This document shows, one piece after another, positions 196-17,250 of a stretch of DNA of 64,000 nt (position 1 is its first letter; every line of letters starts with the position of its first letter). Under the pieces are notes generated by a model, which had not been told where the DNA came from, did not search any database, and saw nothing but the letters and a program-made list of their open reading frames with translations. The position numbers and the translations under genes are program-made. The DNA lies in assembly GCF_008974285.1 (NCBI RefSeq), contig NZ_BKZV01000002.1, positions 62,001 through 126,000 of the forward strand, in the 5' to 3' direction. The stretch is from Thermogemmatispora aurantia (GTDB lineage: Bacteria > Chloroflexota > Ktedonobacteria > Ktedonobacterales > Ktedonobacteraceae).

Positions 196-2466
196 ATGAG
201 CGAATTGATCACTGAAATCTTTCCTGTTAACAGGGAGGCTCTCCCTCCTCTTGCCGGTTACCTGCTGGACCTGACCACAGACGACGACCCGGCCAGGATT
301 GGCGGGAGGCTTGCCTATGAACTGCGCCGCCGCACTGGAGGCCACTGGTTCTGGAGTCGCCCCAGCCGGCACCTGGTAGGCGACCAGCTCTACACTGTGG
401 AGCAGCTGAAGCAGCTCTGTCGAGACCTCTGGTCCGCGCCGAACGGTGTTTTTGGTGGTCTGCGTACGATCCAGCTCGACGAGCAATGGCAGGCTGGGCC
501 AGGCGAGCAGGCCGACTATGTAGCGCTTGGTCTGGCCGACGAACTGGCAGAGGAGTTAAAACAGGCGCTGCAGCCCTTTCACGAGGAACTGCCGCCGGCG
601 CTTGAGATCTGGCGTCTCTATCACCTGCGCGGCTGGCTGGTCCAGGGGGAACCGGCCATCTCGCTCTCGGTCAGTTCACAGCCGGTGCTGAAGCAGAACC
701 TGCGGTCATTCTGTCAAAGCTTTGCCTGGCAGACACTAGCCGAGCTAGAGGAACACCTTCGCGATTTGCGAGTAAAGGCCAAAGACGGAGACCTCTGCGG
801 CTCCATTGTTCGCGTGACAGGGCAGCTCGCTACGGAGCGTCAGCGACTGCTCGCCCTGGCAACGCGCGAGAGTTCCAGAAGGCGTCTAGAGCAAGCCCAA
901 GATGAGGAGGCCGTGGTCTTAGTAGAAACGGCGAGCGGCAAAGGGTACGAATATCCGCTGAGCGGGCTGCGCATCGTTGTGCAGCCAGGACATTATAAGC
1001 GCCTGGGCCTGGACGGCTGCCGGGTCCAGAGCCACCTGCACCTGGCTCCCGCCCAGCGAGCTGCGATGGTCCGCTCGCTGGCCCAACCTCTGCAGAAGCG
1101 CAGACTGCTTAAGTCGAGGGCCTATAGCACACAGAGAGCGCCGAGGCTCTTCCAGCGTGGTGCCGACCTGGGTTTTGTTCCCCGGCTCCGCGTCGGCCAG
1201 AATCATATCATTGAGGGCGAAAATGGGTTGATAGCAGATTTAGAGCAATATGGCTTTTACCGCCCCACGCCTCAACTCGCCTGTAAAGCAGCGCTGCGCA
1301 TTGGTCTGATCCTCGCCGGTGATCTCCCGCAAGCTCATCTGAAAGCAGCGGCCCACACGCTGAAAGAGGCCTTCCAGAAATTTAGGGCTACCGTGCAATT
1401 CTCCCTGAAGCGGCTCCCCCATAACAGCAGGGAGGCGCTGGAGCAGGTCATTGCCACCCTTGAGAAGGAGCGAGCTGTCGATGCGCTGCTTGCTTTCTTG
1501 CCTGATCGGGAGGCACAGCCTTTGCAGCGAGAGGAAGCCAGCCGGAAGCCCTGGACCCTTTATCACCAGTTCAAGGCCATCACAGTTGGCAACGACATCC
1601 CCAGCCAGGTGGTCCTCTTCTCGACCCTGAAAGGGCTGGACTTTGCCGCGGCGAACATCGCTTTGGGTCTCTTGAGCAAGATGGGTGGCATCCCCTATGT
1701 GCTTGCCGAGCCGCTCCCCTACGCCGACGTGATCGTTGGCATCGATATTGCTCGACGCCTCAAAACGACGCTGCCGGGCAGCGTGAACTTAACAGCCCAG
1801 ACGAGAATTTTCCAAAGCGATGGCCAGCTGCTTCAGTACCGGATCGCCGATGCTATCATTGATGGCGAGACCATTCCCACTGAAGTTTTGCAGCAGCTCT
1901 TTCCTCAGACGCTCTTCGCTGGCAAGCGGGTGCTGATCCAGCGCGATGGTCCCTATCGCGGACGCGAGAAACAGGATCTTCAGGAGTGGGCTCAACGCAT
2001 TGGAGCGACGTTCTTGCTGGTCGAGGTCATTAAGCAGGGAGCTCCGCGGCTCTATGGCTTCCAACCGGCTTCAGGCCGAGCCGCCGCCACGAGAGCGGAG
2101 CGTGTCGCGGCTGCCGTGGCCCGATCCGGCAGCTATCGGCCATCGCCTTCTTCTCAGCAACTGGAGGACATTACCCTGCCCCCAAAGGGCAGCGCTATGC
2201 TCCTGAGCGACTACGAGGCCCTGCTTGTTTCAACGCTGCCCCCCTCGTCGGCGGCCACGCCGGAGCCGCTGCATATCCGTAGCGAACCGCCTTTCTCTAT
2301 CAGGGAAGCCCTGCATTCGGTACTCGCCTTGACCTTACTGCACGCCGGCTCGCTCCGTCCTCCGCGCCTGCCGATCAGCATTCACTACAGCGATGAGTTG
2401 GGCGGGCTGGCGCTGGTTGGCATTCGCCCGAAGAGTGCCGAGGGCACCCGGCCTTTCTGGCTTTGA
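196..2466 (+). CDS. ago: Long prokaryotic Argonaute (pAgo), probably catalytically active
   Basis: The 756-residue length is that of full-length pAgos, and an N, PAZ-like, L2, MID and PIWI order is plausible. The MID 5'-end pocket is readable as Y456-x3-K460, Q471 and K495; K495 sits in a classic SKMGG context after an NIAL helix. The PIWI domain shows D517 (VGIDIAR), E558 (DGETIP), D584 (QRDGPYRG) and D733 (HYSDEL). These fit the DEDD nuclease tetrad, with spacing like that of Thermus Ago (my alignment by eye). A PAZ-like stretch covers about residues 180-300. The family uses small nucleic acid guides to bind or cleave foreign DNA or RNA. No clear Shine-Dalgarno precedes the ATG. The gene faces two WD40 genes; the left neighbour is outside the window, so a helicase or nuclease partner cannot be excluded. 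The family call is firm; guide type and activity are inference. Confidence 0.9.
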   Translation: MSELITEIFPVNREALPPLAGYLLDLTTDDDPARIGGRLAYELRRRTGGHWFWSRPSRHLVGDQLYTVEQLKQLCRDLWSAPNGVFGGLRTIQLDEQWQAGPGEQADYVALGLADELAEELKQALQPFHEELPPALEIWRLYHLRGWLVQGEPAISLSVSSQPVLKQNLRSFCQSFAWQTLAELEEHLRDLRVKAKDGDLCGSIVRVTGQLATERQRLLALATRESSRRRLEQAQDEEAVVLVETASGKGYEYPLSGLRIVVQPGHYKRLGLDGCRVQSHLHLAPAQRAAMVRSLAQPLQKRRLLKSRAYSTQRAPRLFQRGADLGFVPRLRVGQNHIIEGENGLIADLEQYGFYRPTPQLACKAALRIGLILAGDLPQAHLKAAAHTLKEAFQKFRATVQFSLKRLPHNSREALEQVIATLEKERAVDALLAFLPDREAQPLQREEASRKPWTLYHQFKAITVGNDIPSQVVLFSTLKGLDFAAANIALGLLSKMGGIPYVLAEPLPYADVIVGIDIARRLKTTLPGSVNLTAQTRIFQSDGQLLQYRIADAIIDGETIPTEVLQQLFPQTLFAGKRVLIQRDGPYRGREKQDLQEWAQRIGATFLLVEVIKQGAPRLYGFQPASGRAAATRAERVAAAVARSGSYRPSPSSQQLEDITLPPKGSAMLLSDYEALLVSTLPPSSAATPEPLHIRSEPPFSIREALHSVLALTLLHAGSLRPPRLPISIHYSDELGGLALVGIRPKSAEGTRPFWL

Positions 2467-2533
2467 ACCTGAGCCGGGCAGGGGTGTCCGCCCACGTTGA
2501 CGAGCGCAGGAGAGGCAGGGACGCCGTGATCAG

Positions 2534-3679
2534 TCAGTGTCCCGGTGCCCCCCAGACCAGGACCATGCCATCCCTCGCTGCCGAGGCAATGCAGCGGCCA
2601 TTCGGCGACCAGGCCACCGCCTGCACTAGATCGCGATGACCACCGTAGCTGAGGACCAGGCGGCGGCGCTCTACCTCCCACACCTGCACTTCTGTATTGT
2701 GGCCCACCATTGCCAGATAGCGGCTATCTGGCGACCAGGCCAGGCTGTGGGGAAAGATCAGGGTTGAGGCTTGCCCCATGCCAATCCCAAAGCTGCCGGC
2801 CAGGGAGAGCACTTCGCGCGCAGTGCTGACCTCGCGCACGATGATCTGCACTGGTCGTAGCTGATCTTCATAGGCCATCGGGTTCTGCTCTACCATGTAG
2901 GCCAGGCAGCGGCCATCTGGCGACCAGGCGGCGGCGATCGCCTGAGCCAGCTCGGGGAAGTAGTGCAGGGGTCGACCAGTGGCTGCTTCCCAGAACTGCA
3001 CGGCGTGCGTGCGCCCCGCCGAGGCGATTGTTTTGCCATCCGGCGACCAGGCTACTATGTAGGAGGGCTGTCCTCCAGGTGGAGGATTTCTCGGGTAGGT
3101 CACCAGCACCTGACCACTCACAGCATCTCTGACGGTCACGCTGTAATCGCTAGCCAGAGCTACGCGCTTCCCATCTGGCGACCAGGCAAACATGTAGACG
3201 GTGGTGAACGCCGAGCCTGCCTCAAAGTCATAGAAGGCCAGCGTGTTGCCACTGGCCGGTTCCAAGACCTGCAGCGGGCCATATCGCCACCCCAGATAGC
3301 TCAGTTGCCCCGTGCCCGTAGAGAACCAGCTCAAGGCGTTGATACAGTCGAGTGTGTCATCCTGGTAAAGGAGCAGCGTCCGTCGGGTGGCAATATCGCA
3401 GATTCTCAGCTGCTCCCAGGTGCAGTAGGCCAACCGTTGGCTATCTGGCGACCAGACCACATCGGGAACGGGGGTTCCCCCTGGAGTGCGAAAGGTCGCC
3501 AGCGTCATCCCGGGAGGCACCGCTGTGGGCGTCGGCGCAACGGTCGCCGTTGCTCGCCCCCGGCTACTGCCAGTGGGCAGCTCCTGACACCCAATGAGCG
3601 TGGCGCTGACCCCCGCCCCTAGCACTGCCAGACCACTGAGGACACCGCGCCGTGAAAGGTGCATATCATTTGTGTTCAT
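2534..3679 (-). CDS. WD40-repeat lipoprotein with Tat-like signal
   Basis: This 381-residue protein begins with SRRGVLSGLAVLGAG and a lipobox LIGC, suggesting Tat-dependent export followed by lipidation and membrane anchoring. A Thr/Pro/Ala-rich linker follows. The rest is a beta-propeller of about seven WD40-like blades, each with a WSPDG/WSPDS core (for example AWSPDGKTIASAG and AWSPDSRYLAMVG). Propellers of this kind are protein-binding scaffolds without enzymatic activity. GGGAGG lies 7-8 nt before the ATG at 3679. It is about 100 nt downstream of a clear paralogue and probably cotranscribed with it. It converges on the Argonaute gene. The binding partner is unknown. Confidence 0.85.
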   Translation of the reverse strand: MNTNDMHLSRRGVLSGLAVLGAGVSATLIGCQELPTGSSRGRATATVAPTPTAVPPGMTLATFRTPGGTPVPDVVWSPDSQRLAYCTWEQLRICDIATRRTLLLYQDDTLDCINALSWFSTGTGQLSYLGWRYGPLQVLEPASGNTLAFYDFEAGSAFTTVYMFAWSPDGKRVALASDYSVTVRDAVSGQVLVTYPRNPPPGGQPSYIVAWSPDGKTIASAGRTHAVQFWEAATGRPLHYFPELAQAIAAAWSPDGRCLAYMVEQNPMAYEDQLRPVQIIVREVSTAREVLSLAGSFGIGMGQASTLIFPHSLAWSPDSRYLAMVGHNTEVQVWEVERRRLVLSYGGHRDLVQAVAWSPNGRCIASAARDGMVLVWGAPGH

Positions 3680-3779
3680 GGAATCACCCTCCCGTTATCA
3701 TCAGCTCAGAGGCGCAAGCCATAGCTTCAATGGCTGGTTCATTGCAACCTCCGACTCGCTTGTCTCCCTCAAGGCGCCT

Positions 3780-4976
3780 TCAAGGGGCCTTCCAGACATG
3801 CACTTCGCCATCGCTGCTGGCTGAAGCCAGCCAGTCCCCCTGAGGAGACCAGGCCACGGCCAGGACAGGCGCGCGATGACCACGATAGGTCAGGGCCAGG
3901 CGTCGGCGCGCAATTTCCCAGACCTGCACCGTCGCCCCCTGACCAGCCGCGGCCAGCCAGCGGCTGGTTGGCGACCAGGCCAGACTGCGTAGCAGGAGAG
4001 GGATTCCAGCCAGCCCCGGGGGCACAGCAGGATAGACTGCCGGCTGCGAGAGCAGGAGCCGTCCACTGTCTACCTCGCGGACCACGAGCGTCAGCGACTG
4101 GGGCCGGTTCCAGGTCTGCAGCGAGACAGTGCCCGCCAGGTAGGCCAGGACCCGGCCATCCGGCGACCAGGCGGCAGCCAGAGCCTTGGTTTGTTCGGGA
4201 AAGTAATGCAGGGGTTGACCGGTGGCTGCCTCCCAGAACTGCACGGCGTGCGTGCGCCCCGCCGAGGCAATGGTCTTGCTGTCTGGCGACCAAGCCACTA
4301 TGTAGGAGACATCTGTCGGATAGGAGGTACTCAGCCCCTTCGAGGAGAGGTCACCGCTCATGGCTTCCCAGGCAACCGTGCCGCCATCAGCGGCCATAGC
4401 TATGCTCTTCCGATCTGGCGACCAGGCCAGAGCATAGACCGGAAACGAGGTGTAATTCTCCACTCCACCTGCGATTACCAGACTCTCATCGATCCACCCC
4501 GTGGCCACGTTCCACATTACCAGGGAGACCGTCTTTACCTGTCTGCTCCCTTCCAGAGAGCTGAGGTGCTGGCCATCCGGCCCCCAGGCCAGAGCTGCCC
4601 AGCGAGCGTCACCGGGAAACGGCTGATAGACCGAGTGGATAGCACCAGAGGCCTCCCATAGATAGAGCAGACGCTCCCGTGGCAGATCACGCACAGGACT
4701 GGGAACAGCCAGGGCCGCTAGCAGACCACTGTCAGGCGCCCATTCCAGCCCGTAGGGTATAGCCGGCTTCTTGACGAAAGACATCTGATGACGTACCAGC
4801 AGCGTTCCAGGAGTGGGCGGGGAAACCGCCTCCATGACATGCCGTGACAGCAGAAGCGACTCCTGACTGGCGCTAGCTCGCACCTGCGGCGGCTGAGCCG
4901 TCAGTGTCAACACTTGCCGCAAGAGACTCCGTCGGGACAAACGCCCGACAGGCTGAGGAGCAAGGGGTGTATCCAT
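3780..4976 (-). CDS. WD40-repeat protein with twin-arginine signal, paralogue of its downstream neighbour
   Basis: This 398-residue protein has an N-terminal twin-arginine motif (RLSRRSLLR), but no lipobox cysteine is visible. At least six blades with WSPD or WAPD cores follow. Two consecutive blades, around YIVAWSPDSKTIASAGRTH and the FWEAATGQPLHYFPE block after it, are almost identical to the downstream gene. The rest has diverged. This points to tandem duplication with purifying selection or gene conversion on those blades. AAAGGTGG precedes the ATG at 4976. Function is unknown; a scaffold at the outer face of the membrane is an inference. Confidence 0.82.
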   Translation of the reverse strand: MDTPLAPQPVGRLSRRSLLRQVLTLTAQPPQVRASASQESLLLSRHVMEAVSPPTPGTLLVRHQMSFVKKPAIPYGLEWAPDSGLLAALAVPSPVRDLPRERLLYLWEASGAIHSVYQPFPGDARWAALAWGPDGQHLSSLEGSRQVKTVSLVMWNVATGWIDESLVIAGGVENYTSFPVYALAWSPDRKSIAMAADGGTVAWEAMSGDLSSKGLSTSYPTDVSYIVAWSPDSKTIASAGRTHAVQFWEAATGQPLHYFPEQTKALAAAWSPDGRVLAYLAGTVSLQTWNRPQSLTLVVREVDSGRLLLSQPAVYPAVPPGLAGIPLLLRSLAWSPTSRWLAAAGQGATVQVWEIARRRLALTYRGHRAPVLAVAWSPQGDWLASASSDGEVHVWKAP

Positions 4977-5199
4977 GTTGCCACCTTTGATCTCTCCGTG
5001 CGTTTAAAAGTGGCCGGCTGAGGACTCGGGTATAAGGAGACCCCGTCCACCATCTGCTTCTAGAAGACGGTAGCACCCGCCAGGCATGCCCCGCTAGAGC
5101 TTAGCTCACACAGCGAGTGTGACTTAGCTCATACTTCAGACTCAGAGTGGCAACAGCCCTGGCAGCCTCAGCGGAGCACGCGCAGCATCAATAGTTCTG

Positions 5200-5208
5200 T
5201 GCTATAAT
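5200..5208 (+). promoter_or_regulatory. Extended -10 promoter for the cyclodeaminase-folD pair
   Basis: TGC-TATAAT is a perfect extended -10 element with no good -35. It predicts a start near 5215 and a leader of about 67 nt. The upstream ATG at 5207 would overlap the -10 and is therefore not the start codon. Confidence 0.6.
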
Positions 5209-5281
5209 GTCCCACAAAACGCCTGTCCCTCTGGGATACTGCAGACAACCAATAGCTACTGCTCTTTGCAAGGACATGTAC

Positions 5282-5905
5282 ATGTATCTAGATCAATCCT
5301 TACGGGAGTATCTTAATGACCTCTCTTCCTCTCAACCAACACCCGGGGGCGGCTCCGCTGCGGCGCTGAGTGGAGCGATGGGTGCGGCCCTTGCCAGCAT
5401 GGTCACCCGACTCACTATTGGCAAGAGTGGTTACGCCGATGTACAGGATGAGATCGAAGACATTCTACAGAAGACAGAGGAATTGCGCGAGCGATTCCAG
5501 CAACTCATACAAGAGGATAGTGACGCCTACGAGCGACTGGCCATGAGTTTTCGGCTTCCCAAAGGGAACGCTGAAGAGAACGAGGCTCGCAGCCGCGTCA
5601 TTCAGGTACGCCTCCATGAGGCGGCCCTGGTGCCCCTGGAGGTCGCCGAGCGGGCGGCGGAGCTGATGCGTTTCTGCGTGCGCCTGGCCCAGATTGGCAA
5701 CAAGAACGTCCGCAGCGACATCGCTGCCGGGGCCGCCCTGGTGGTGAGCGCGGCCCAGGGCGCGGCCTGGATGGTGCGCGTCAATCTGCGCTCGCTCAGA
5801 AACCAGCAGTTGGTCGAGCAGCTGCAAGGGCGCCTGGAGACGGCCCTGCTGCAAGTGGAGACGGGCCATGCCGACGTGGTTCGCCTGGTAGGAGGGACCT
5901 TGTGA
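5282..5905 (+). CDS. Formiminotransferase-cyclodeaminase C-domain protein (methenyl-THF cyclohydrolase/cyclodeaminase family)
   Basis: This 207-residue stand-alone protein belongs to the all-helical FTCD cyclodeaminase family. The signature PTPGGGSAAALSGAMGAALA is near the N-terminus, and the RAAELMRFC and GNKNVRSDIAAGAALV segments are typical of the C-terminal half. Known members convert 5-formimino-THF to 5,10-methenyl-THF and ammonia or act as methenyl-THF cyclohydrolases. AAGGA lies 7 nt before ATG 5282 and only 1 nt before ATG 5276, so 5282 is chosen. Its TGA overlaps the GTG start of folD in a GTGA junction, so translation is coupled. It may supply or consume methenyl-THF for that partner. 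Confidence 0.88.
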   Translation: MYLDQSLREYLNDLSSSQPTPGGGSAAALSGAMGAALASMVTRLTIGKSGYADVQDEIEDILQKTEELRERFQQLIQEDSDAYERLAMSFRLPKGNAEENEARSRVIQVRLHEAALVPLEVAERAAELMRFCVRLAQIGNKNVRSDIAAGAALVVSAAQGAAWMVRVNLRSLRNQQLVEQLQGRLETALLQVETGHADVVRLVGGTL

Positions 5906-6795
5906 GCGCAACGATTCTCGACGGGCGCGCCCTCAGCAGCGAGATTCGGGGAGAGCTGCGGGACGAGGTCGCTCGCTTCCGTGAGCAGCAAGGATACCCG
6001 CCCGGTTTGGTGATTGTGCGCGTGGGCGGCGACGCAGCTTCCGGCGTTTACACTAAGGCTATCCTACGCCTGGCTGGCGAGATCGGCGTGCAGGCCCGTT
6101 TAGAGGAGCTGCCAGCGCTGACAAGCGCCGACGAGCTGCGCGCCCTGCTGCTTCAGCTCAATGAGGACCAGCGTACCCACGGCATCATCGTGCAAATGCC
6201 CTTGCCCGCCCATCTCTCGCAGAAGATGGTCGCCGATACGGTGGCACCAGCGAAAGATATCGATGGCATCAGTCCAGGTAGCGCCGGCAATCTCTTCCTG
6301 GGCCTCCCTAGCTTCCTGCCATCGACCGCCGCCGCCGTCATGGAGATTCTCGATCGCTACCGGATACCGCTAGCAGGCAAGCGCGTGGTGATACTGGGAC
6401 GCAGCAATGTGGTGGGTAAGCCACTGGCCTTGATGCTGCTCCAGCGCAACGCTACGGTAAGCGTCTGCCATTCGCGTACGCGCGACCTGACCACGCTGAC
6501 GCGCCAGGCCGATGTGCTGATCGCCGCTGTCGGACGCCCACGCCTGGTGACCGCCGAGATGGTGCGCCCGGGGGCGGTGGTCATCGATGTCGGGATCAAT
6601 GCCTTGCCAGAAGGGGGGATCGTGGGCGATGTGGACTTTGAGGCGGTGCGCGAGGTGGCCGCAGCCATCACCCCAACGCCGGGCGGCGTCGGCCCGTTGA
6701 CGAATGTGATGCTGCTCAAGCAGTGCGTCCGCGCCGCCTGGCTGGCCAACGGGCTGGCGGAGGAGAAGCCGGACCTTTCCGTGCCCCAGTCTTAG
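5902..6795 (+). CDS. folD: FolD-type methylene-THF dehydrogenase/cyclohydrolase lacking the catalytic lysine
   Basis: This 297-residue protein aligns without gaps to FolD through the N-terminal domain. Conserved parts include VQMPLP, KDIDG, the NADP loop GRSNVVGKP and TPGGVGPLTNVML. At the family's YxxxK motif it reads Y50-T-K-A-I54, so the catalytic lysine (K54 in E. coli, K56 in human) is Ile. The usual PCTPxG motif is PSTAAA at 140-145. In characterised enzymes this lysine is required for cyclohydrolase. I infer that the protein keeps dehydrogenase activity but is weak or dead as a cyclohydrolase, with the coupled upstream cyclodeaminase-family protein filling the gap. GTG start, preceded by GGAGGGAC. 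Confidence 0.88.
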   Translation: MSATILDGRALSSEIRGELRDEVARFREQQGYPPGLVIVRVGGDAASGVYTKAILRLAGEIGVQARLEELPALTSADELRALLLQLNEDQRTHGIIVQMPLPAHLSQKMVADTVAPAKDIDGISPGSAGNLFLGLPSFLPSTAAAVMEILDRYRIPLAGKRVVILGRSNVVGKPLALMLLQRNATVSVCHSRTRDLTTLTRQADVLIAAVGRPRLVTAEMVRPGAVVIDVGINALPEGGIVGDVDFEAVREVAAAITPTPGGVGPLTNVMLLKQCVRAAWLANGLAEEKPDLSVPQS

Positions 6796-6825
6796 GGGAA
6801 AGACCCAGCAAGGTGGGGGGAGGGA

Positions 6826-6869
6826 GGGGCATCCGCACCCAGGAGGGCAAATAAGCAGTGCGATGCCCC
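6826..6869. terminator. Terminator-like hairpin between convergent folD and globin genes
   Basis: GGGGCATC-c-GCAC pairs with GTGCGATGCCCC, giving 12 pairs with one bulge and a 19-nt loop. Neither side has a strong T-run. Its position between convergent genes suggests a bidirectional terminator. Confidence 0.4.
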
Positions 6870-6882
6870 CCCACGCAACGTG

Positions 6883-7284
6883 CTATGGTTCACCAGCAGC
6901 AATCATCTGGGAGCTGATGACCTCAAAAGCCTGTACCCAGGCATCTTGCATGGCCGGCGTGAAACGCGGCCCAAGAAAGTCGACAAAGGTGGCAATCAGG
7001 GCTTGCCCAACCAGGGGATAGTGCTCCGGTTGCACACCATAGCGATAATGGCGTTCACCCAGCTTGTGTAGCACCGGCACAAGGTTCTCCCCACGCTCAA
7101 CGCCAGCGACCACGGCGGCGAGCGTGGCCATGAGAGCGCTTTCCTGGCGCCGCATGTCGGTGTTGGCAAAGAGCGGGCGCGTTTGCGGATAGGTCGCGAA
7201 AAGGCGTTCGTAGAACTGGCGCGCGAAAGCTTCTTTCTGAGGGGCAATCAGCCCAAAGCTTTCTTTGAGCAAGGGCGCATTCAT
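6883..7284 (-). CDS. Single-domain bacterial globin (Vitreoscilla-type)
   Basis: This 133-residue protein has the three-on-three globin pattern. FYERLF carries Tyr25 at B10, RPLF carries Phe39 at CD1, Gln47 is a candidate for E7 in RRQES, and RHYRYGV carries the proximal His79 at F8, followed by PEHYPLVGQALI. Tyr-B10 with Gln-E7 is typical of O2/NO-binding bacterial globins, so a role in oxygen storage or NO detoxification is likely. There is no reductase domain, so it is not a flavohemoglobin. The start at 7284 (MNAPLLK) is preferred because AGAGG precedes it; an in-frame upstream start at 7338 would add an Arg/Lys/Glu-rich tail unlike the family. Confidence 0.9.
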   Translation of the reverse strand: MNAPLLKESFGLIAPQKEAFARQFYERLFATYPQTRPLFANTDMRRQESALMATLAAVVAGVERGENLVPVLHKLGERHYRYGVQPEHYPLVGQALIATFVDFLGPRFTPAMQDAWVQAFEVISSQMIAAGEP

Positions 7285-7542
7285 GGCGCGTCGCCTCTCT
7301 TCCTTTCTTGTCTCTCTTGCTATCCGTCCTTCCTTCACCTCTCGCGCGGCAACAGGATCAGACAGCCCCAGATCGCTGGCGCCCTTGCTCGCCGATCCCG
7401 CTCGCTGCCCTGCCCTGCATCAGCCGCCAGGCTGGACGCTATTGTTAATTATGCCCAATCCGTTTCTCTGGTTATACAGTATCATTTTCTATTTCCCCCG
7501 TAAATGAGTAGAATAGCTAATTCTCACTTCAAATATTTATGC

Positions 7543-7554
7543 ATTGTGCACAAT
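7543..7554. promoter_or_regulatory. Perfect palindrome ATTGTGCACAAT, candidate operator
   Basis: A 12-nt perfect palindrome lies in the AT-rich region upstream of the globin gene, flanked by AATATT-like sequence on both sides. It resembles half-sites of Rex or Crp-type regulators (TTGTG/CACAA). The regulator assignment is a guess. Confidence 0.35.
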
Positions 7555-7616
7555 ATTCGGAGGCCCCGCCTGGACCGGCTCGCTCCCCTCATCAGCACCA
7601 GCCGCGCACGGCAACT

Positions 7617-7668
7617 ATATAGACTAATGTCTATATGAAGATGTCCCGCCCTCTCAGCGGGACATCTT
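7617..7668. other. Two abutting perfect inverted repeats upstream of the tail-like gene
   Basis: ATATAGAC and GTCTATAT (7617-7636, 4-nt loop) are followed at once by AAGATGTCCCGC and GCGGGACATCTT (7638-7668, 12-bp stem, 7-nt loop). The second looks like a terminator stem but has no T-tract. The rest of 7285-7847 shows no convincing gene. Confidence 0.5.
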
Positions 7669-7847
7669 GCTTTCGCGCTGTCACTCAGCTATACTACTAC
7701 TGACAAAAGGAGGTTGGGGCGCGTCCCCCGCGCCGGGTGAAGCAGCGTCTTCCTCCCCTATCCCCTGTGCTTGTTGTCCTGCTCCTTTCTTCTCCTCAGT
7801 AGCAGGCCCAGGCCAGAGACTCCCCCACCAAGCAGGAGCTTCCCCTC

Positions 7848-9908
7848 ATGGTTCGTACTCTTCCCAATCCCCTGAGCGCCGCTCTCAACAGCCTTACGCG
7901 CCGCCCAGTCCTGACTCTCAACGTCGCCGACCATGTCCTCCACTACGCTCCTTACCAGACCCCGGGGACCCCTGAGAGCTGGCATGACGCCTGTCTCGCC
8001 AGCGATGGCAGCATCGTGCGTGTCCATCTGGCGCGCTCCAGCTCTTTTCTTACCGGGACATTCCAGGTTCAACGCATCACTGATCCTGCTCAGGCCAGCC
8101 AGTGGGCTACCAGCGCCTGGGTGACGCTACCGGGCGCGGCTGGCGTTATGAATCAGGACGGCAGTTGCGCTGTTGCCAACTGTGGGGGGCTGCTGCGGGC
8201 TTTCGCTCAGCGTGGCAGTGGCGGCAACCAGCTCTGGGTCTGGACCTCAGCCAACAATGGCCTGAGTTGGAGCGGCCCGACAACTGTGCTTTCTCCACCG
8301 GGCAACGCTCTGATCAAAGGTATTGCCTGCGCTGGCACCAACGATGTCTTTTTTCTCTACGATGTCGTTGGTGGCGAAGCCCTGGGTTGCTCTTTTTTCA
8401 ACGGCACTGGCTGGTCCAGTCTGCAGAGCTGGTCGCTGCCACCGTTGGGAGCCGGTGGTGGACTGGCCAGCGCCTGCTCTGGCTCCCTCTACACGCTGAT
8501 TTACTCAGATAATTACTCGCTGAGCACCTGCACCTTCAACGCCGCTAATGGGCAGTGGAGTTCTGGCGTGGCGATCGCCCCGGCTACGACTACCGCTATT
8601 ATGCGCCTGGCTCCGCGCCTCTCCTTCGCGGATGGTCTCTACACTCTGAGCTGCGTCGAGGCCGACAGCGGCAACCTGACCGGCTCAGTCTACAGCTACC
8701 CACGACTGCGCCAGTCGCTGGACCTGGTCCACTGGTCAAATGGGACTATTCTGCACATGCTGTCCTGTACCTATGGGGCCGTCGTGTTGCCCGTCGCCAG
8801 TCCCGCCAGTGGAAACGCAGGTCCGCGCTCCTACGTCCTGACGATGCCAACGATCGCCAGCGCCCCCCTCTTCCAGAGCACTAACCCTCAGCAGTCTCTC
8901 GATCTCTCGCCCGCTGTGCTGGCCTATCGGCGCCTGGAGCGCCCAGGCCGTCCCGCTCGCTTAGAGGTGCTGCTGGACAACAGCGGTGGCAGCTATAACG
9001 CGCTGGTCAGCAGCGCTGGTAGCTACCGTCCACTCGGCCCGGGAGCCACGCTGACCCTGAGCGAAGGCTACTACGCAGGTACGCCGCCTTCTCCGACGCA
9101 GATCAAGACTGGCAGCTATGTCCTGAGTCAGCTCCACTTTCTGCGCTCTCCCCAGGAGCATCGCCTCTTGCTCGTCGCCAACGATCGCACGCGCCAGCTC
9201 GATCTGCTCGCCCGCTACCAGAACAGCTACAATGGCCAGACGCTGGCCTTTCTGATTAGCGAGGTCTGCGCCCGGGCTGGCCTCTTTACCATCGCTCTTC
9301 CCGCTACCGACCAGCTGAGCCAGACTATTCCCTCTTTTGTCATCCAGGCAGGCCAGCCTTACCGCGCGGCCCTCGACGAGCTGTGCAATACATACGGGCT
9401 GGTCTACTTCCTCGACCAGGATGAGGTCCTGCGCTTCCGCGAGCTGAGTAGCGGCGAGACCCCTGTCTGGTCCTACCAGCCCGAGATCGAGCTGCTCAGT
9501 ATCGGCAGTAGCGACGAGCGCGCCAACCATATCATCGTCAGTGGCAGGCCACCGGCCAGTGGTTCGCCTCAAGCTTTGACGACCGCCGAGGCCTACGACG
9601 ATCTCCATGTACAGCAGGTGGGCTGCGAGCGCCTGCGCTACCACATTGACCACAAGCTGACCACTACCAGCCAATGCGCTCAGAAGGCGGCCTTCTTGCT
9701 GGCTCAGGAGCAGCGCGCCGCCAGTCGCCACCGCATCACTGTGCCGCTGAATCCAGCGCTACAGCTCTTCGATGCAGTGACGCTGATCGATAGCCTGGCA
9801 CCTACGGGCAGCGGCCAGAATCTGACCTGTCGCATCAGCGGCCTGACGGTCCGCTACGCCGCTCAGCAGGGTCTGGCAGAGATGCAGCTTGAGCTGGAAG
9901 GTCTTTAG
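7848..9908 (+). CDS. Large beta-rich protein with phage tail/baseplate-like C-terminal half
   Basis: This 686-residue protein has no signal peptide. Residues about 30-340 are rich in Ser/Gly/Trp with sialidase-like blocks (NGLSWSGPTT, LDLVHWSNGT), suggesting a propeller. Residues about 360-680 resemble tail or baseplate hub proteins: a LEVLLDNSGGSYN strand, then an ARAGLF helix, FVIQAGQPYRAALDELC, YGLVYFLDQDEVLRF and a repeated strand pattern to the end. No capsid, terminase, lysis or integrase gene lies nearby, so it is an isolated or domesticated tail-like gene rather than a prophage. CAGGAG lies 9 nt before the ATG. The stop codon is 19 nt from the distal end of the CRISPR array. The family call is by eye and tentative. 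Confidence 0.5.
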   Translation: MVRTLPNPLSAALNSLTRRPVLTLNVADHVLHYAPYQTPGTPESWHDACLASDGSIVRVHLARSSSFLTGTFQVQRITDPAQASQWATSAWVTLPGAAGVMNQDGSCAVANCGGLLRAFAQRGSGGNQLWVWTSANNGLSWSGPTTVLSPPGNALIKGIACAGTNDVFFLYDVVGGEALGCSFFNGTGWSSLQSWSLPPLGAGGGLASACSGSLYTLIYSDNYSLSTCTFNAANGQWSSGVAIAPATTTAIMRLAPRLSFADGLYTLSCVEADSGNLTGSVYSYPRLRQSLDLVHWSNGTILHMLSCTYGAVVLPVASPASGNAGPRSYVLTMPTIASAPLFQSTNPQQSLDLSPAVLAYRRLERPGRPARLEVLLDNSGGSYNALVSSAGSYRPLGPGATLTLSEGYYAGTPPSPTQIKTGSYVLSQLHFLRSPQEHRLLLVANDRTRQLDLLARYQNSYNGQTLAFLISEVCARAGLFTIALPATDQLSQTIPSFVIQAGQPYRAALDELCNTYGLVYFLDQDEVLRFRELSSGETPVWSYQPEIELLSIGSSDERANHIIVSGRPPASGSPQALTTAEAYDDLHVQQVGCERLRYHIDHKLTTTSQCAQKAAFLLAQEQRAASRHRITVPLNPALQLFDAVTLIDSLAPTGSGQNLTCRISGLTVRYAAQQGLAEMQLELEGL

Positions 9909-9927
9909 CGTTTCAATTTTCAATCCC

Positions 9928-10864
9928 CTTTCAATCTCAGAGCGGGCTAAACAGGCATTCTGACTCGACCTGGCACAGGCGCCGACGCAGCTCCTCAAGT
10001 TTCAATCCCAGAGCGGGCTAAACAGGCATTCTGACCGGTGTCATCCGGCTGACAGAGACAGAACCACCACTTAGGTTTCAATCCCAGAGCGGGCTAAACA
10101 GGCATTCTGACGGCAAGGTGGGGGGGACGAGCCAATGTCTGGACAGAGGCGTTTCAATCCCAGAGCGGGCTAAACAGGCATTCTGACCATTCTTAGGATC
10201 AGCCCCTCTTTCATTCCAGGCAGGGTTTCAATCCCAGAGCGGGCTAAACAGGCATTCTGACCCGGTTTCCTCCATCCCTTTTCTTCTGGAAGAAGGAGTT
10301 TCCGTTTCAATCCCAGAGCGGGCTAAACAGGCATTCTGACCTGCCTGGTGCTCGCTCTCTCAGCGCTGGCTTTACGTCGAGTTTCAATCCCAGAGCGGGC
10401 TAAACAGGCATTCTGACGCAAGACCTGGCCTGGCCAGGAGGTGAACCCAGGTTTCAATCCCAGAGCGGGCTAAACAGGCATTCTGACTCGAGAGCAATCA
10501 CCTGAGTACCATGAGACGCTTCGAGTTTCAATCCCAGAGCGGGCTAAACAGGCATTCTGACTGACCAGGCTTTCTTGATGCAGTTGGACCCCTTGCCGTT
10601 TCAATCCCAGAGCGGGCTAAACAGGCATTCTGACCTTCATGTTGATGCTTTGGCGCCCGGCATTGTAACCGGTGGTTTCAATCCCAGAGCGGGCTAAACA
10701 GGCATTCTGACACCGACGCGCGAGGAGATTCGCGCGCGGATGGTAGGTTTCAATCCCAGAGCGGGCTAAACAGGCATTCTGACTCACGCCACACGAGAAA
10801 AAAGTGTGGCGTAGACTTCATATAAAGGTTTCAATCCCAGAGCGGGCTAAACAGGCATTCTGAC
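9928..10864 (-). CRISPR. CRISPR array, 13 repeats of 37 nt and 12 spacers of 33-44 nt, transcribed from the minus strand
   Basis: Repeats start at 9928, 9999, 10075, 10151, 10225, 10304, 10381, 10451, 10525, 10598, 10675, 10747 and 10828. On the plus strand each begins GTTTCAATCCC and ends GGCATTCTGAC. Twelve are identical; the one at 9928 has two substitutions (positions 1 and 10), as expected for the oldest, leader-distal end. Read on the minus strand the repeat ends ATTGAAAC, the usual 8-nt crRNA 5' tag of type I/III systems. Both facts place the leader on the right (10865 onward). A partial repeat start (GTTTCAAT) also lies at 9910-9917. No cas genes are in the window. Spacer 12, the newest, contains an 8-bp inverted repeat. 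Confidence 0.97.
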
Positions 10865-10876
10865 GGTACCCTTCCT

Positions 10877-10905
10877 AAAATAGCATTGCAGGCGGCCTCA
10901 GTCAA
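10877..10905 (-). promoter_or_regulatory. CRISPR leader promoter
   Basis: On the minus strand TTGACT and TATTTT are separated by exactly 17 nt. The predicted start is near 10870, about 5 nt before the first (leader-proximal) repeat. The orientation agrees with the degenerate end and the ATTGAAAC tag. Confidence 0.6.
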
Positions 10906-10922
10906 GCCTTTTCGAGCATCCC

Positions 10923-10959
10923 AAAAAAACGGTCATCAGTGACCGCTTTTATGCGGTCA
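10923..10959 (-). terminator. Intrinsic terminator with a competing antiterminator stem in the CRISPR leader
   Basis: Read on the minus strand there are three segments: A (TGACCGC), B (GCGGTCA) and C (TGACCG), followed by seven Ts. B with C forms a terminator hairpin with a 4-nt loop. A with B forms an alternative 7-bp hairpin with a 6-nt loop that would destroy it. It lies just upstream of the CRISPR promoter and would block read-through into the array. Conditional attenuation is an inference. Confidence 0.6.
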
Positions 10960-11000
10960 TGATGCCAGCCACTCTGGCCCTGGCACGGCCTGGGGAGCCA

Positions 11001-11044
11001 TTCGAGGATCGCTGCATGAAAACCCGGGCACTGCGATCCTCGAA
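11001..11044. other. Perfect 12-bp inverted repeat in the distal CRISPR leader
   Basis: TTCGAGGATCGC pairs with GCGATCCTCGAA across a 20-nt loop. No T-tract follows. It may be a regulator or integration-host site or a structured RNA; no function can be assigned. Confidence 0.45.
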
Positions 11045-11158
11045 GCGAACAGCGTGAGATGCATAGGAGGTATTTATATATTGATCTACTGTGAGAGTAC
11101 TATCGATGGCAAGAAGAAAGTATGAACCAGATCCGATACAGAAGTGAGTTCAGGAGCA

Positions 11159-11343
11159 TCAGGAGCTGTTCTTGAAAGTATTCGCGCGGCACTCCACAGC
11201 GTAGCAAGGGCGGTCGCTCCTGGCCTGCACAATCTGGTTGTAAAGTTCCTTGTTGCCGCGGTGCCGCAGAAAGAGCGGCTCACCCACGGTGGCCTCCAGC
11301 GCCGCCAGTTGCTGGGTCACCGCAGGCTGCATCAGCAAGAGGG
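11159..11343 (-). pseudogene. Decayed fragment resembling a LysR-type helix-turn-helix
   Basis: One minus-strand frame reads MQPAVTQQLAALEATVGEPL, which looks like the recognition helix of LysR regulators (QPAVSxQIxxLE). There is no intact start, the frame upstream is interrupted, and the following residues do not match the family before a stop at 11159. It is therefore a remnant at best. The surrounding 11045-11633 holds no intact gene; 11415-11490 is AT-rich. Confidence 0.35.
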
Positions 11344-11454
11344 CCTACGCCACCCCGAAGACAGCTCCGGCGCGGTAGATGGCAGCAAAGCAAAGCAGCG
11401 GTACCACTCCAGATTAATCATAAACTTATTTATATATATCATCAGAAAGACTAT

Positions 11455-11484
11455 TTGCTTTATAGCCGGGCCACGATATAGAAT
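11455..11484 (+). promoter_or_regulatory. Weak candidate promoter for the DJ-1/PfpI gene
   Basis: TTGCTT and TAGAAT are 18 nt apart in an AT-rich block, about 150 nt upstream of the GTG start. Matches are partial. Confidence 0.3.
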
Positions 11485-11633
11485 GTCAGCGGAGCGGCAC
11501 GCCAAAGCACCGAAGAGGAGACGCAGCGTTTCCAGCAAATGGGCGCCGCTCAATCGTGGTAAGATGCATCTCTCTCTGTGCAGAGCACAGCTTGCCTTAC
11601 TAGCCGAGACCCGAAGAAAGGAGTGAGTTCTCT

Positions 11634-12302
11634 GTGGCTCAACCGCGTCGTATTCTGATGGTAGTGACGGGTCACGATCGCATTGACGACGAGCACCGGA
11701 CCGGGATCTGGTTTGAGGAATTCGCGGTTCCCTATCAGGCTTTCAAAGAGCAAGGCTGGCAGATCACAGTCGCCAGCCCGCGCGGTGGCAGCGTGCCCGT
11801 TGACCCGCGCAGCGAACCCAAGGAGGAAGAGGCCCAGAAGTACGCCGAGGCCCGGGCCCAGCTGCAGAATACGCGGCCCCTGGCTGGGCTGAATGCCGCC
11901 GATTACGACGCCATCTTCCTGCCTGGCGGGCATGGCGTGATGTTCGATCTGGCCGAAGATACGACTCTGCACCGTCTGCTTGGCGACTTCGAGGGTCAGG
12001 GCAAGGTCATCGCCGCTGTCTGCCACGGTCCAGCGGGCCTGGTCGGGGCCCGGCGTGCTGATGGCCAGCCACTGGTGGCGGGTAAGACCATCACGGCCTT
12101 CACCGACGAGGAGGAGCGCGCCACCGGGCTGGATAAGTTTATGCCCTTCCTGCTGGAGACGCGCCTGCGCGAGTTGGGGGCCAATTTCGTGACCCGCCCC
12201 AATTGGTCCGACCACGTGGAGCGCGATGGGCTGCTGATCACGGGCCAGAACCCACAATCGAGCGCCAGCATCGCGCGTGCTGTGATCGAGGCCCTGAGCT
12301 AG
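11634..12302 (+). CDS. DJ-1/PfpI superfamily protein (type 1 glutamine amidotransferase-like, Hsp31/glyoxalase III group)
   Basis: This 222-residue protein has the nucleophile elbow AVCHGPAG with Cys130 followed by His131. An acidic residue candidate lies in TGIWFEEFAVPY near residue 27, and the FLPGGHGVMFDL loop is present. The PGGHG and AVCHGP motifs plus the long TGxWxEE segment point to the Hsp31-like branch. Those proteins are glutathione-independent glyoxalases/deglycases or holding chaperones that detoxify methylglyoxal. The GTG start has AAAGGAG 10 nt upstream. The gene stands alone, ending in a strong terminator. Confidence 0.87.
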   Translation: MAQPRRILMVVTGHDRIDDEHRTGIWFEEFAVPYQAFKEQGWQITVASPRGGSVPVDPRSEPKEEEAQKYAEARAQLQNTRPLAGLNAADYDAIFLPGGHGVMFDLAEDTTLHRLLGDFEGQGKVIAAVCHGPAGLVGARRADGQPLVAGKTITAFTDEEERATGLDKFMPFLLETRLRELGANFVTRPNWSDHVERDGLLITGQNPQSSASIARAVIEALS

Positions 12303-12327
12303 GCTATACCAGGCTACAGGACCCAGT

Positions 12328-12369
12328 GGGCGCCCGGCTCTTCATTCGAGCGAGTCGGGGCGCCCTTTT
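12328..12369 (+). terminator. Rho-independent terminator of the DJ-1/PfpI gene
   Basis: GGGCGCCCGGCTC pairs imperfectly with GAGTCGGGGCGCCC, followed by TTTTCTTC. Confidence 0.65.
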
Positions 12370-12396
12370 CTTCGTCGTCATTCTTCCTGATCTCGC

Positions 12397-12897
12397 TCAG
12401 GCTTTGCCTGCCCGTCGGCGGCGCTGCTCGGCCATCCTGCGCCGATGCTCCAGACGGCGACGACGGCGCTCCCGGCGCCGGGCCGCTTCCAGCTCTGGAT
12501 CGCTCTCCACCGTCTCCAACGCCTGACTGCCGCTCCTCGCCTGATCACCACCGGAGGCCACAGCAGCCTCTCCCACACCCTGGCGGGGTACCGCCCGTCC
12601 CCGCGTGGCCATACGCACCACCATCACGGCCAGGACCAGGGAGATGATGAGTAAGGCAAAAGAGGCCCCGAACAGATAGGGCGTTACCGAGGAGGGCAGC
12701 AGCGTCGTTCTGGCCAGAGCGCTGATGAAGAAGACCAGCGCCAGCAGCAGGTACTCGCTGCCCGTGAGAATATTGACCTGCTGCAGGGGGCGCATCCCTG
12801 GCTGGGCGCGTAAGCGGCGACGCCCAACCACCAGGTTATACCCCCCCAGAGCCACAAAGAAGAGGCCAAAGATGACAAGAATACGTGGATCATTCAT
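12397..12897 (-). CDS. Small membrane protein with Arg-rich C-terminus
   Basis: This 166-residue protein has about three hydrophobic helices: 7-24, 47-64 (YLLLALVFFISAL) and 77-95 (FALLIISLVLAVMVV). A cytoplasmic tail follows, with a run of Arg-Arg-x repeats at about 138-163 that may bind nucleic acid or phospholipid. I do not recognise the family. No strong ribosome binding site precedes the ATG at 12897. It follows another membrane protein on the same strand by 88 nt and may be cotranscribed with it. Confidence 0.7.
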   Translation of the reverse strand: MNDPRILVIFGLFFVALGGYNLVVGRRRLRAQPGMRPLQQVNILTGSEYLLLALVFFISALARTTLLPSSVTPYLFGASFALLIISLVLAVMVVRMATRGRAVPRQGVGEAAVASGGDQARSGSQALETVESDPELEAARRRERRRRRLEHRRRMAEQRRRRAGKA

Positions 12898-12985
12898 AAG
12901 TATACATACTCACTCATCACTCAATGAGAGTAAGAGTAATCGCTGCCTGGTCAATTGCGCAAGCCCGGTGGGGCGAAGACCAGCG

Positions 12986-14518
12986 TCACGACCGGCCTGT
13001 CCGGCTGGCATGTGCACGCTCATACTGCCAGCGCAAGGCCAGTGCCAGGAGCAGAGAGAGCAGCGGCCCCGTCACGAGATTCAGACTGAACGTGAGCGGA
13101 TCAAGAATGCGCAGCGTACGGAGTGGCAGCGCGATATCGGCATGGGGAATCTGCAACAGGCCCGCCAGACCTTGAAAGATCCAGAGATCAGGAGCCAGCA
13201 CCAGCGCCAGGCCCAGCAAGGCCGCCAAGAGCAGGTAGGATGGCCAGCCTGGCAGCGCCGGCTCTCCTCCAGAGGCAGCAGCCGTTCCAGTCGTCTCCTG
13301 ACCATAGGTGGTCAGGAGGAGCAAGGCCAGAGCGGCACCATTCAAGACCACTGGCTCCAGGGCCAGGACATCGAACATGGTCCCATTGCCGAGGAAGAGC
13401 GGGATGCGCCACAAGAGCGAGAAAATAATCAGGGCGGCGTCGGGCCGGCTCAGGTCGATATGAATAGGCACCTGCCAGGGCAAGAGCGCCGACAACAGGC
13501 GCAGCGTTGGGAAAGGACCGGGCGCAAACTGATAGAGGACAAACATGGCATCGTAGGCCGCTGCGAAGAGGTAGCCCACTACCGTCGGCAGGAGCGCCAG
13601 GAACAGAACGGCGATCGCATAGCTCAGCAACGGACGGCGAGTCGGCCTTGAATCCGCCATCGTCTCGCCAGCATCCGCAGCCTCCTCCGCTTCTCCCGCC
13701 TGCTCTCCCTCTGCTTCGTCCTCCCCATCCTGCCCGTCGACGATTCGAGCCGCTGCCTGAGCGGTCTCAGAGGAAGCGCTCATCGTTTCCCGGGCTGGCA
13801 CTTCTATTGCGCCCTCCTCAGTTCTGAGCGAAACCGCCAGCGCCGACTCCCCGGAACCTGCTCCTCCTTCTTCCTCTTCCGAGGTCTCTCCTTCTTCAGC
13901 CTGAGCAAAAACCTGGTCTTGCCTCACCTTCGCGGCAGCCTCCGAGCGGGCCGGTAGTGGCCGTAAGGGGCCGAAGGCCAAATGGCCGAGCGCGGCCCCG
14001 ACGACACTCAGCACCAGCGCAAAGAGGGCCACCAGGCCCCAGGTACTCAAAAAGGCCAGGCGCAGCTCGGCCTGAGCCAAGAGCGTCGACAGCACCGAGG
14101 GATAAGTCAGGGCGGCCCCCAGATGACACAGAGCCAGAATAGCGCCGGCTAGGGCCGCCTCCAGCAGGCCGGGACGCTGCAAGGTGCGCAGCTTACGAAT
14201 GGCCGTCACCAATAGGCCACAGCCGGGAGCAGCCAGCACCGCTACAGGCACCAGCGCCGTTGAGGGCTGGACATTCAAGCGGGCGATAATAGCGAAGAGC
14301 AGGCCCACTACGGTCACCACCTCCACCGCCAGCCAGTCGGGTCCACTTTTTGCCCGAGGCTGGCTCTTCCCTTCAACGGGAGCAGTTTCCGGCGTGGCCG
14401 TCGCAGCCGTCTCGCCTGCCTGTTGCTCCGCCGGCTCAGAAGCAGCAGGCTTCTCCTCAGCGCCTTCCTGGGCCTGGGGAGCGGCAGCAGTGCGCTCAGA
14501 ATGTTCGGATTCTTGCAT
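12986..14518 (-). CDS. Polytopic membrane protein with a long acidic insert
   Basis: This protein of about 510 residues has a Glu/Ala-rich N-terminus and about four helices (for example EVVTVVGLLFAIIARL and LLEAALAGAILALCHLGAAL). An acidic, probably disordered insert of roughly 110 residues (EEGETSEEEEGG, DGQDGEDEAEGE) comes next, then five or more further helices. The last, YLLLAALLGLALVLAPDLWIF, precedes a segment ending in LLSLLLALALRW. The family is unknown; the layout recalls Yip1-like integral membrane proteins, but without a diagnostic motif. The start at 14518 (MQESEHSER) is chosen over 14563 because GAGGAG lies 12 nt upstream. Confidence 0.68.
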   Translation of the reverse strand: MQESEHSERTAAAPQAQEGAEEKPAASEPAEQQAGETAATATPETAPVEGKSQPRAKSGPDWLAVEVVTVVGLLFAIIARLNVQPSTALVPVAVLAAPGCGLLVTAIRKLRTLQRPGLLEAALAGAILALCHLGAALTYPSVLSTLLAQAELRLAFLSTWGLVALFALVLSVVGAALGHLAFGPLRPLPARSEAAAKVRQDQVFAQAEEGETSEEEEGGAGSGESALAVSLRTEEGAIEVPARETMSASSETAQAAARIVDGQDGEDEAEGEQAGEAEEAADAGETMADSRPTRRPLLSYAIAVLFLALLPTVVGYLFAAAYDAMFVLYQFAPGPFPTLRLLSALLPWQVPIHIDLSRPDAALIIFSLLWRIPLFLGNGTMFDVLALEPVVLNGAALALLLLTTYGQETTGTAAASGGEPALPGWPSYLLLAALLGLALVLAPDLWIFQGLAGLLQIPHADIALPLRTLRILDPLTFSLNLVTGPLLSLLLALALRWQYERAHASRTGRS

Positions 14519-14757
14519 GCAGACGCTCAGCTCCTCATGGACAATCTGCCAGGATAGTAGCACATTGGGGGCAGGGCGACAAGGGTCAGACTACAAAGAA
14601 GCCAGTCAGTTGGTCAGGAGACGGTTACAGCAGTAACGCGAGAGGAGGATGAGGAGAAGCCGGCCAACCAGCCCACGAGCAGGTTTGCCGGACGGAACGA
14701 GCGAGCCAGCAGCGTGGCCAAAGAGGGCAGCCAGCGCGCCCTCCTGGCCAGCACCAC

Positions 14758-15603
14758 TCAGGGGTCTGCTCTCTCCGCCCCGGGGAACCAGATAACGGCG
14801 CTCACCATCTCACCGCCTGGGACCACCAGCTCATCGTTGTCAGGAACCAGCCAGTTTGCCAGGAAGCTGCGCAATTCGCGGCGCGTCGCCTCATCGTCAG
14901 GCAGAAGTTGCTGCTCAAGCATCTCCTCCACAGCATCATCAAGCGAGGAATAGCGCAGCGAGATCGGCGTCTTCACAATTTCCACATTGGCATAGATGCC
15001 CATCTCAAAGAGGACATCCAGCAAGTGGATATAGGCCGGAGAGCGGGCCCGCTCCGTGTTATGAAAATGGCGCCAGACGGGAGCCGTAAAGTCATCGAAG
15101 TGGGTAGCGCGCATGTAAATATAGCACGTTCTCCGGGCCGCAGCGCGCAGCTTTTCGACGAAGGGGACCACCTCGCGGATCGGATAGAGCACATGACTGC
15201 AGAGCACCAGATCGGCGCGCAGATCGGCAGGAGCCGCCTCCCAGGTCGACTGAATCGGCACGATGTTATTGACTCCGCGCTCCCCCGCCTCCTGACGCAG
15301 ATAGCTCAGCATAGTGGCATTGGGTTCGACCGCGTAGACCACCCGTACCAGCGGCGCCACAGCCAGAGCGAAGCGGCCCGTTCCGGCTCCCACGTCCAGG
15401 ACGCTCAGCGACGGCTCCAGCTCCTGGCGCACGCGCTGAAAAAATGGATCACTCGCAGCACGCTCGCGCGTGCTGCGATGGAAGAAGCGCGCGCGCCGGT
15501 CCCAATAACCGGCACTGGAGCGCCCCAGGCGGGCATAGATCGCTTCCATCTGCTGTGCGCGCGCATCATGAATAGCGTACCAACGCTCAATTGCGCTCTC
15601 CAT
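14758..15603 (-). CDS. Class I SAM-dependent methyltransferase
   Basis: This 281-residue protein has motif I VLDVGAGTGRF at about residues 70-80, an acidic residue at the end of beta 2 (YAVEPN) and LVLCSHVLYPI as motif III/IV. An N-terminal helical cap precedes the Rossmann fold. The substrate is unknown. AGAGGGGGG lies directly before the ATG. It is 68 nt downstream of coxG on the same strand and could be the last gene of the cox transcript, but nothing in the sequence ties it to CO metabolism. Confidence 0.85.
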   Translation of the reverse strand: MESAIERWYAIHDARAQQMEAIYARLGRSSAGYWDRRARFFHRSTRERAASDPFFQRVRQELEPSLSVLDVGAGTGRFALAVAPLVRVVYAVEPNATMLSYLRQEAGERGVNNIVPIQSTWEAAPADLRADLVLCSHVLYPIREVVPFVEKLRAAARRTCYIYMRATHFDDFTAPVWRHFHNTERARSPAYIHLLDVLFEMGIYANVEIVKTPISLRYSSLDDAVEEMLEQQLLPDDEATRRELRSFLANWLVPDNDELVVPGGEMVSAVIWFPGAERADP

Positions 15604-15671
15604 AGCCCCCCTCTCTGCTCAACTATCATCCCCAGCCAGAGCCAGGCGCGACCCTGGGGCGCGGGGCCTCC

Positions 15672-16130
15672 CTAGCTCTGCGAAGTCCCGCCTGGCTCCA
15701 GCTTTGCCTTCAAACAGGCAAAGAATTGGCCAGTCAGCTTCTCCGCGGTCCCTTGCAAGAGGCGCGCCCCCACGCTGGCGATCGTTCCACTGACAATCAC
15801 TTTGGCCTCCCAGTCCATGCGCGTCTGATTGCTATCGACCGCCGTCAGGTGCATATCGCCCGAGAGTTCCACGGCGCTCCCCGGCGCCTTCCCCCGCGCC
15901 TTCACCACCATGTGATCCGGCTCATGCATCTCGGGCCGCGTTACATCCAGCGTAAACCTGGCCTTCACGGCCCCAATGCCGACGCTGACCACGGCCTTCC
16001 AGTGCTCCTCTCCGAGCACTTCGAGACTCTGAAAGCCGGGAGCGCATTCAGCGACTTTGTTGACATCCAGCAGGAAGGCCCAGACCTTATCGATCGGGGC
16101 GGCGATGGTCTGCGAACCAGAGAAATCCAT
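15672..16130 (-). CDS. coxG: CoxG family protein (carbon monoxide dehydrogenase subunit G, SRPBCC fold)
   Basis: This 152-residue protein has the SRPBCC/START-like fold. It begins MDFSGSQTIAAPIDKVWAFL, with the conserved WxFLLDVNKVAECAPG segment and a C-terminal amphipathic helix (RLLQGTAEKLTGQFFACL). CoxG proteins are accessory factors of aerobic CO dehydrogenase and have been linked to membrane recruitment and quinone delivery. It follows the XdhC-YHS gene by 9 nt. Unlike some CoxG proteins it has no C-terminal transmembrane anchor. Confidence 0.9.
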   Translation of the reverse strand: MDFSGSQTIAAPIDKVWAFLLDVNKVAECAPGFQSLEVLGEEHWKAVVSVGIGAVKARFTLDVTRPEMHEPDHMVVKARGKAPGSAVELSGDMHLTAVDSNQTRMDWEAKVIVSGTIASVGARLLQGTAEKLTGQFFACLKAKLEPGGTSQS

Positions 16131-16139
16131 AGCGACCTG

Positions 16140-17102: not shown

Positions 17103-17250
17103 ACCGTTTCCCTCCGGGCAGCCAGCACCGGCGACCGGCTGCGCCAGGCGGCAAGCAGCATCTATCTATCTGCCTGCTTGTCTGCGCCTGGCTCCGGCCT
17201 CCGGTCTGGCGGCTGCCATCATCCACCTGGTTGGGTTGCTGAGGGCCACA

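Follow-up and report, generated by a model that had tools for sequence, protein, structure and literature searches.

The window analysed here, a 64,000-nucleotide stretch of the Thermogemmatispora aurantia genome, carries a gene (ago) for a prokaryotic Argonaute (pAgo). As far as its sequence tells, the protein is probably a long-A Argonaute of the YK/DEDD type that stands alone and is catalytically competent, most likely acting as a DNA-guided DNA nuclease that limits invaders. We read it as competent because its DEDD tetrad, its YKQ(TN)K pocket and its terminal WL each have aligned counterparts in solved long pAgos that are active. The defence reading follows from the patchy retention of the gene in the genus and from the characterised cyanobacterial Argonautes. 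The initial annotation, made from the letters alone, had proposed a candidate active guide-dependent nuclease; with the pocket and the full DEDD in place, the alignments support this proposal.

The window encodes a single, intact long-A Argonaute

196 to 2466, forward strand: long-A prokaryotic Argonaute of 756 aa, a single gene from ATG to stop (family matches, orthologues, reading-frame evidence)

The PADLOC pAgo profile PDLC02396 matched the protein with 628 bits, covering residues 3-756 of 756, and the Pfam Piwi profile PF02171 scored 37.8 bits (cut-off 28.9), while an NCBIfam search gave no match. T. tikiterensis has an intact orthologue at 84% identity. A second orthologue, at 82% identity, is split over two contigs of the metagenome-assembled genome HOG59. 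Substitutions between ago and its orthologue numbered 88, 53 and 168 at codon positions 1, 2 and 3, and the overall dN/dS against T. tikiterensis was 0.27 (Nei-Gojobori). The profile matches, the orthologues, the frame-following substitutions and the dN/dS value together show that this is a real gene and not a chance ORF, and the last two indicate that it is maintained as a protein. Thus, the complete long-Argonaute ORF called on this strand by the initial annotation was confirmed. By region, dN/dS reached 0.42 in a MID stretch, against 0.12 and 0.10 for the two catalytic blocks of PIWI (Nei-Gojobori point values); the single-copy neighbour genes ranged from 0.06 to 0.27.

We searched the whole genome for a second Piwi gene and found none, so ago is single-copy. 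No Argonaute homologue was found in the viral contigs scanned, and a promoter and terminator scan returned nothing above shuffled sequences.

Long-A pAgos are defined by MID and PIWI domains related to those of long pAgos, a full-length chain, a DEDX tetrad in which X is D, H or K, a PAZ of two subdomains, and phylogenetic position (PMC6299218). The window protein has the MID/PIWI and the full-length chain, a DEDX tetrad, and, in a small tree, a place apart from long-B. Judged by its sequence features, it is an ordinary member of the known long-A YK DEDD family, with no new domain, motif or operon. The named relatives belong to Thermogemmatispora, a thermophilic genus, which bears out the earlier suggestion of a possible thermophile.

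The catalytic tetrad and the guide pocket align with those of solved Argonautes

1744 to 2394, forward strand: PIWI catalytic tetrad D517 (1744-1746), E558 (1867-1869), D584 (1945-1947) and D733 (2392-2394), by column match to solved Argonautes
1561 to 1680, forward strand: MID 5′-guide pocket Y456 (1561-1563), K460 (1573-1575), Q471 (1606-1608), T477, N487 and K495 (1678-1680), by column match to AaAgo and CbAgo (YKQTNK motif)
2455 to 2463, forward strand: conserved FWL at the C terminus, present as YWL in AaAgo and as FWL in 9iad
2059 to 2175, forward strand: Ala/Arg/Ser-rich PIWI insert, residues about 622-660, from alignments of relatives

The eight residues singled out in the initial annotation (Y456, K460, Q471, K495, D517, E558, D584 and D733) are present at exactly those positions. 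For the column check, we built a profile (A1) from five relatives, compared it with all PDB sequences, and numbered the matched columns in the chains. The columns of D517/E558/D584/D733 corresponded to 541/577/611/727 of CbAgo (6qzk), to D502/E541/D571/D683 of AaAgo (1yvu) and to 534/575/601/722 of 9iad; the CpAgo tetrad aligned likewise. In the CbAgo chain that was crystallised, positions 541 and 611 are Ala; we take them to be engineered catalytic positions. A structural alignment with a tetrad acid outside the active site had been named as one result that would overturn the annotation. In the sequence alignment, all four acids match catalytic columns, and the tetrad passes the check at that level.

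In the pocket, Y456/K460/Q471/K495 share columns with Y439/K443/Q454/K480 of AaAgo and Y472/K476/Q487/K519 of CbAgo. Together with T477 and N487, they make up the YKQTNK motif of PMC6299218. The pocket would therefore be of the YK class and of the 5′-phosphate type, as originally proposed. The C-terminal FWL lies at the very end of the chain. In pAgos, the carboxylate at the C terminus contributes, through a metal, to anchoring the 5′ phosphate of the guide.

Positions 66-717 of the A1 profile aligned to residues 85-745 of the 9iad chain with 371 bits, from the PAZ region through the C terminus. The PAZ region is collinear with 9iad without a large gap, and from this colinearity the PAZ may be complete; Pfam PAZ was unmatched up to E = 1. 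AlphaFold models gave no usable fold (mean pLDDT 34 from the single sequence and 33 from a four-row alignment). The PIWI insert, roughly 35 residues long, is absent from more distant relatives and varies in length within the genus; it is 10 residues shorter in T. tikiterensis.

The Argonaute gene stands alone at a conserved chromosomal site

2534 to 3679 and 3780 to 4976, reverse strand: two WD40-repeat genes, convergent with ago (Pfam; blastn of loci)

Upstream of ago and on its strand lies an ORF whose end is 292 bp away. It has no Pfam match, and the stretch containing it is missing from HOG59. Downstream, the WD40 pair is followed by FTCD_C, FolD and globin genes. Comparing the loci by blastn, we found the ago site to be conserved on the chromosome among congeners. 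The WD40 genes were considered as operon partners of ago and rejected, because one congener (G023) keeps them without ago. Searched with Pfam, the genes beside ago included no nuclease partner, whether Cas4-like, phospholipase D or of another kind. Unlike the Natrinema and Nostoc homologues, which have nuclease-like partners annotated alongside, the window ago stands alone. On the Nostoc plasmid pCENA543b (L041, 3547-6599), the Argonaute gene shares 4 bases at its start with a PD-(D/E)XK nuclease gene.

The gene is repeatedly lost or missing within the genus

Among six Thermogemmatispora genomes, ago is intact in three and decayed or absent in the other three. T. carboxidivorans (G020) retains a remnant whose matches are confined to residues 18-130 and 237-252. 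In G021, the whole ago-WD40 stretch is gone and a TnpB-like fragment stands in its place, with the downstream flank 99% identical. G023 is the congener with the WD40 genes and no ago. T. carboxidivorans and G021 have the flanking FTCD_C gene at 98% identity, the others at 93-94%. As more distant congeners carry ago and a remnant persists in T. carboxidivorans, loss is the simpler explanation for T. carboxidivorans and G021; the absence from G023 may instead reflect gain in the other lineages. The three genomes without an intact gene, G021 with its near-identical flank among them, show that ago is dispensable. Such patchy presence is what one would expect of a defence gene.

Several species have TnpB-like genes or gene fragments close to the ago site (L003, 6555-7577; L048, 10600-11450; L002, 8395-8754). 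The FTCD_C-like gene of G023 (L049, G023:C296, 7117-7812) has two stop codons within the matched stretch, which may be an assembly error.

These species offer a natural comparison. Because very close relatives have ago intact, decayed or cleanly missing, its cost and use can be tested among them.

The CRISPR array in the window is not tied to the Argonaute

About 9928 to 10864, forward strand: CRISPR array of 13 repeats of 37 nt with 12 spacers of 33-44 nt (context only)

About 7.5 kb with WD40, folate and globin genes separate the array from ago. The initial annotation described it as an orphan array without cas genes that shares the neighbourhood of ago. The first part holds within the window, where there is no cas1. 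At the genome level, we reject the orphan idea, because the same repeat, identical or nearly so, recurs on contig 3 at 708-709 and 724-727 kb (G000:C3:708283-709005 and 724390-726578) and the genome has both type I-D and I-A-like cas genes. Cas1 occurs at two places in the whole genome, both outside the window. The type I-D cas operon, at the end of contig 2, adjoins long arrays with a related but different repeat, and the I-A-like set is on contig 3 at about 365 kb. Thus, the array is remote from cas genes and is not the orphan of a cas-free genome. Any tie between ago and array is unsupported, given the distance, the unrelated genes between them, and the cas genes and same-repeat arrays elsewhere; nothing links the array to ago. 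A MID-OH (CRISPR-linked, MpAgo-like) class for the Argonaute was likewise rejected on its YK pocket, the lack of cas1 in the window and the lack of a partner gene.

Three further observations concern these loci. DISARM drmA, drmB and drmD lie between the two contig 3 arrays (L033, G000:C3:706000-725000, 3509-17685). In the type I-D operon (L034, G000:C2:764000-780280, 2154-5452), Cas10d is apparently split into abutting frames of 908 and 190 aa. The second Cas1 (L035, G000:C3:357000-373000, 7861-8484) matches the Cas1 profile over roughly the first half only and sits beside Cas3-, Cas8a- and Cas7-like genes.

A DNA-guided DNA nuclease is the preferred reading

We propose that the Argonaute would hold a short 5′-phosphorylated guide, most likely DNA, with the guide 5′ end in the MID pocket and its 3′ end towards the PAZ. 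The DEDD site, with two divalent metal ions, would cut complementary DNA between the two target bases that face guide positions 10 and 11, at the high growth temperature of the host. The role of the protein would most likely be to keep invading DNA in check, for example plasmids, phages and transforming DNA. We infer cleavage, the DNA guide and target, the 5′-phosphate preference and the defence role from ChAgo (PMC11817465), SeAgo (PMC10653904) and the wider family; the temperature optimum is likewise predicted.

Among characterised long-A pAgos of the YK/DEDD type, the majority favour DNA as both guide and target, which argues against an active enzyme whose main activity is DNA-guided cutting of RNA, or which is itself RNA-guided, and which acts on invader or host transcripts. 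The gene also lacks the Cas1-Cas2-Cas6-Cmr neighbourhood typical of RNA-guided MID-OH Agos. However, the MID and PIWI motifs do not tell the type of guide or target, some pAgos use DNA guides on RNA (PMC9360449), and ChAgo, which takes DNA guides, cuts RNA as well as DNA, though less well (PMC11817465). We regard action on or by RNA as unlikely. We give somewhat less weight to a housekeeping role, in which the protein would finish or separate replicated chromosomes and defence would be secondary, as proposed for TtAgo. A replication role of TtAgo in T. thermophilus has been described (PMC10653904), and a single-copy gene at a conserved chromosomal site under moderate purifying selection would suit such a function; the dispensability of ago in half of the congeners speaks against it, and we consider this role improbable.

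Intact motifs do not prove cleavage and the AlphaFold models are unusable, so the protein could in principle bind guides and no longer cut despite its tetrad. However, the catalytic PIWI blocks are its most constrained part, and the tetrad acids are kept in all close relatives, which makes a non-cutting protein very improbable. Still harder to credit is a partnership with the neighbouring array, for instance one in which CRISPR transcripts serve as guides. The array and ago do lie within 10 kb of each other, but the intervening genes are unrelated, the repeat is common to the contig 3 arrays in a genome with type I-D and I-A-like cas, and the pocket is YK-type and not the MID-OH type of CRISPR-linked Agos.

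Chloroflexota relatives and comparison with known Argonautes

A Piwi match was found in only 8 of 400 sampled Chloroflexota genomes. Homologues at 38-41% identity come from G025, which represents a different genus of the same family, and from G216 and G142, both other Chloroflexota. In a MID-PIWI tree, these three cluster with the window Argonaute (support 83/92), separate from the cyanobacterial pair, AaAgo and the Clostridium pair; the tree is small, with some weak forks and several long branches. The window protein groups with the DEDD long pAgos, and a long-B-like protein with a broken tetrad (G114) forms an outlying long branch. The DEDD acids are kept in all close relatives and in the Chloroflexota homologues.

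The G025 Argonaute (L010, G025:C7, 1498-3645, reverse strand) has A, T and A at the pocket positions Y, K and N, keeps DEDD, and stops two residues before the -WL. On this sequence, it combines a MID*-type pocket with an intact active site. Since G025 has dropped most of the 5′-phosphate pocket and kept DEDD, the Chloroflexota clade (the window protein, G216, G142 and G025, about 36% or less identical to any solved Argonaute) might record a switch in guide 5′-end chemistry and follow its own guide and target rules at 55-75 °C, an idea that we put forward as a long shot.

In the open-access literature searched, we found no characterised Chloroflexota Argonaute and no paper naming both Thermogemmatispora and Argonaute. 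If active, the window protein would add a thermostable, stand-alone DEDD Argonaute from this phylum.

Among known systems, SeAgo of Synechococcus elongatus, which restricts plasmids and transformation (PMC10653904), resembles the window protein by description as a long-A, DEDX Argonaute, and is mesophilic. CbAgo (6qzk) and CpAgo (9jh7) have the YK pocket and DEDD in the same columns, but they come from mesophilic Clostridium on another branch and share 28-30% identity in MID-PIWI. AaAgo of Aquifex aeolicus (1yvu), from a thermophile, has the same Y/K/Q/T/N/K pocket, DEDD and terminal WL, although it is 27% identical over 443 aligned residues and sits on a different branch. The nearest solved protein is 9iad (745 aa, cyanobacterial type), at about 36% identity in MID-PIWI. 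It is very similar to a Nostoc plasmid Ago, and its tetrad lies within one residue of the published ChAgo (Chroococcidiopsis) tetrad, though we do not equate the two. Its pocket is YY where that of the window Argonaute is YK, but the two proteins share near-full-length colinearity, DEDD and the C-terminal FWL.
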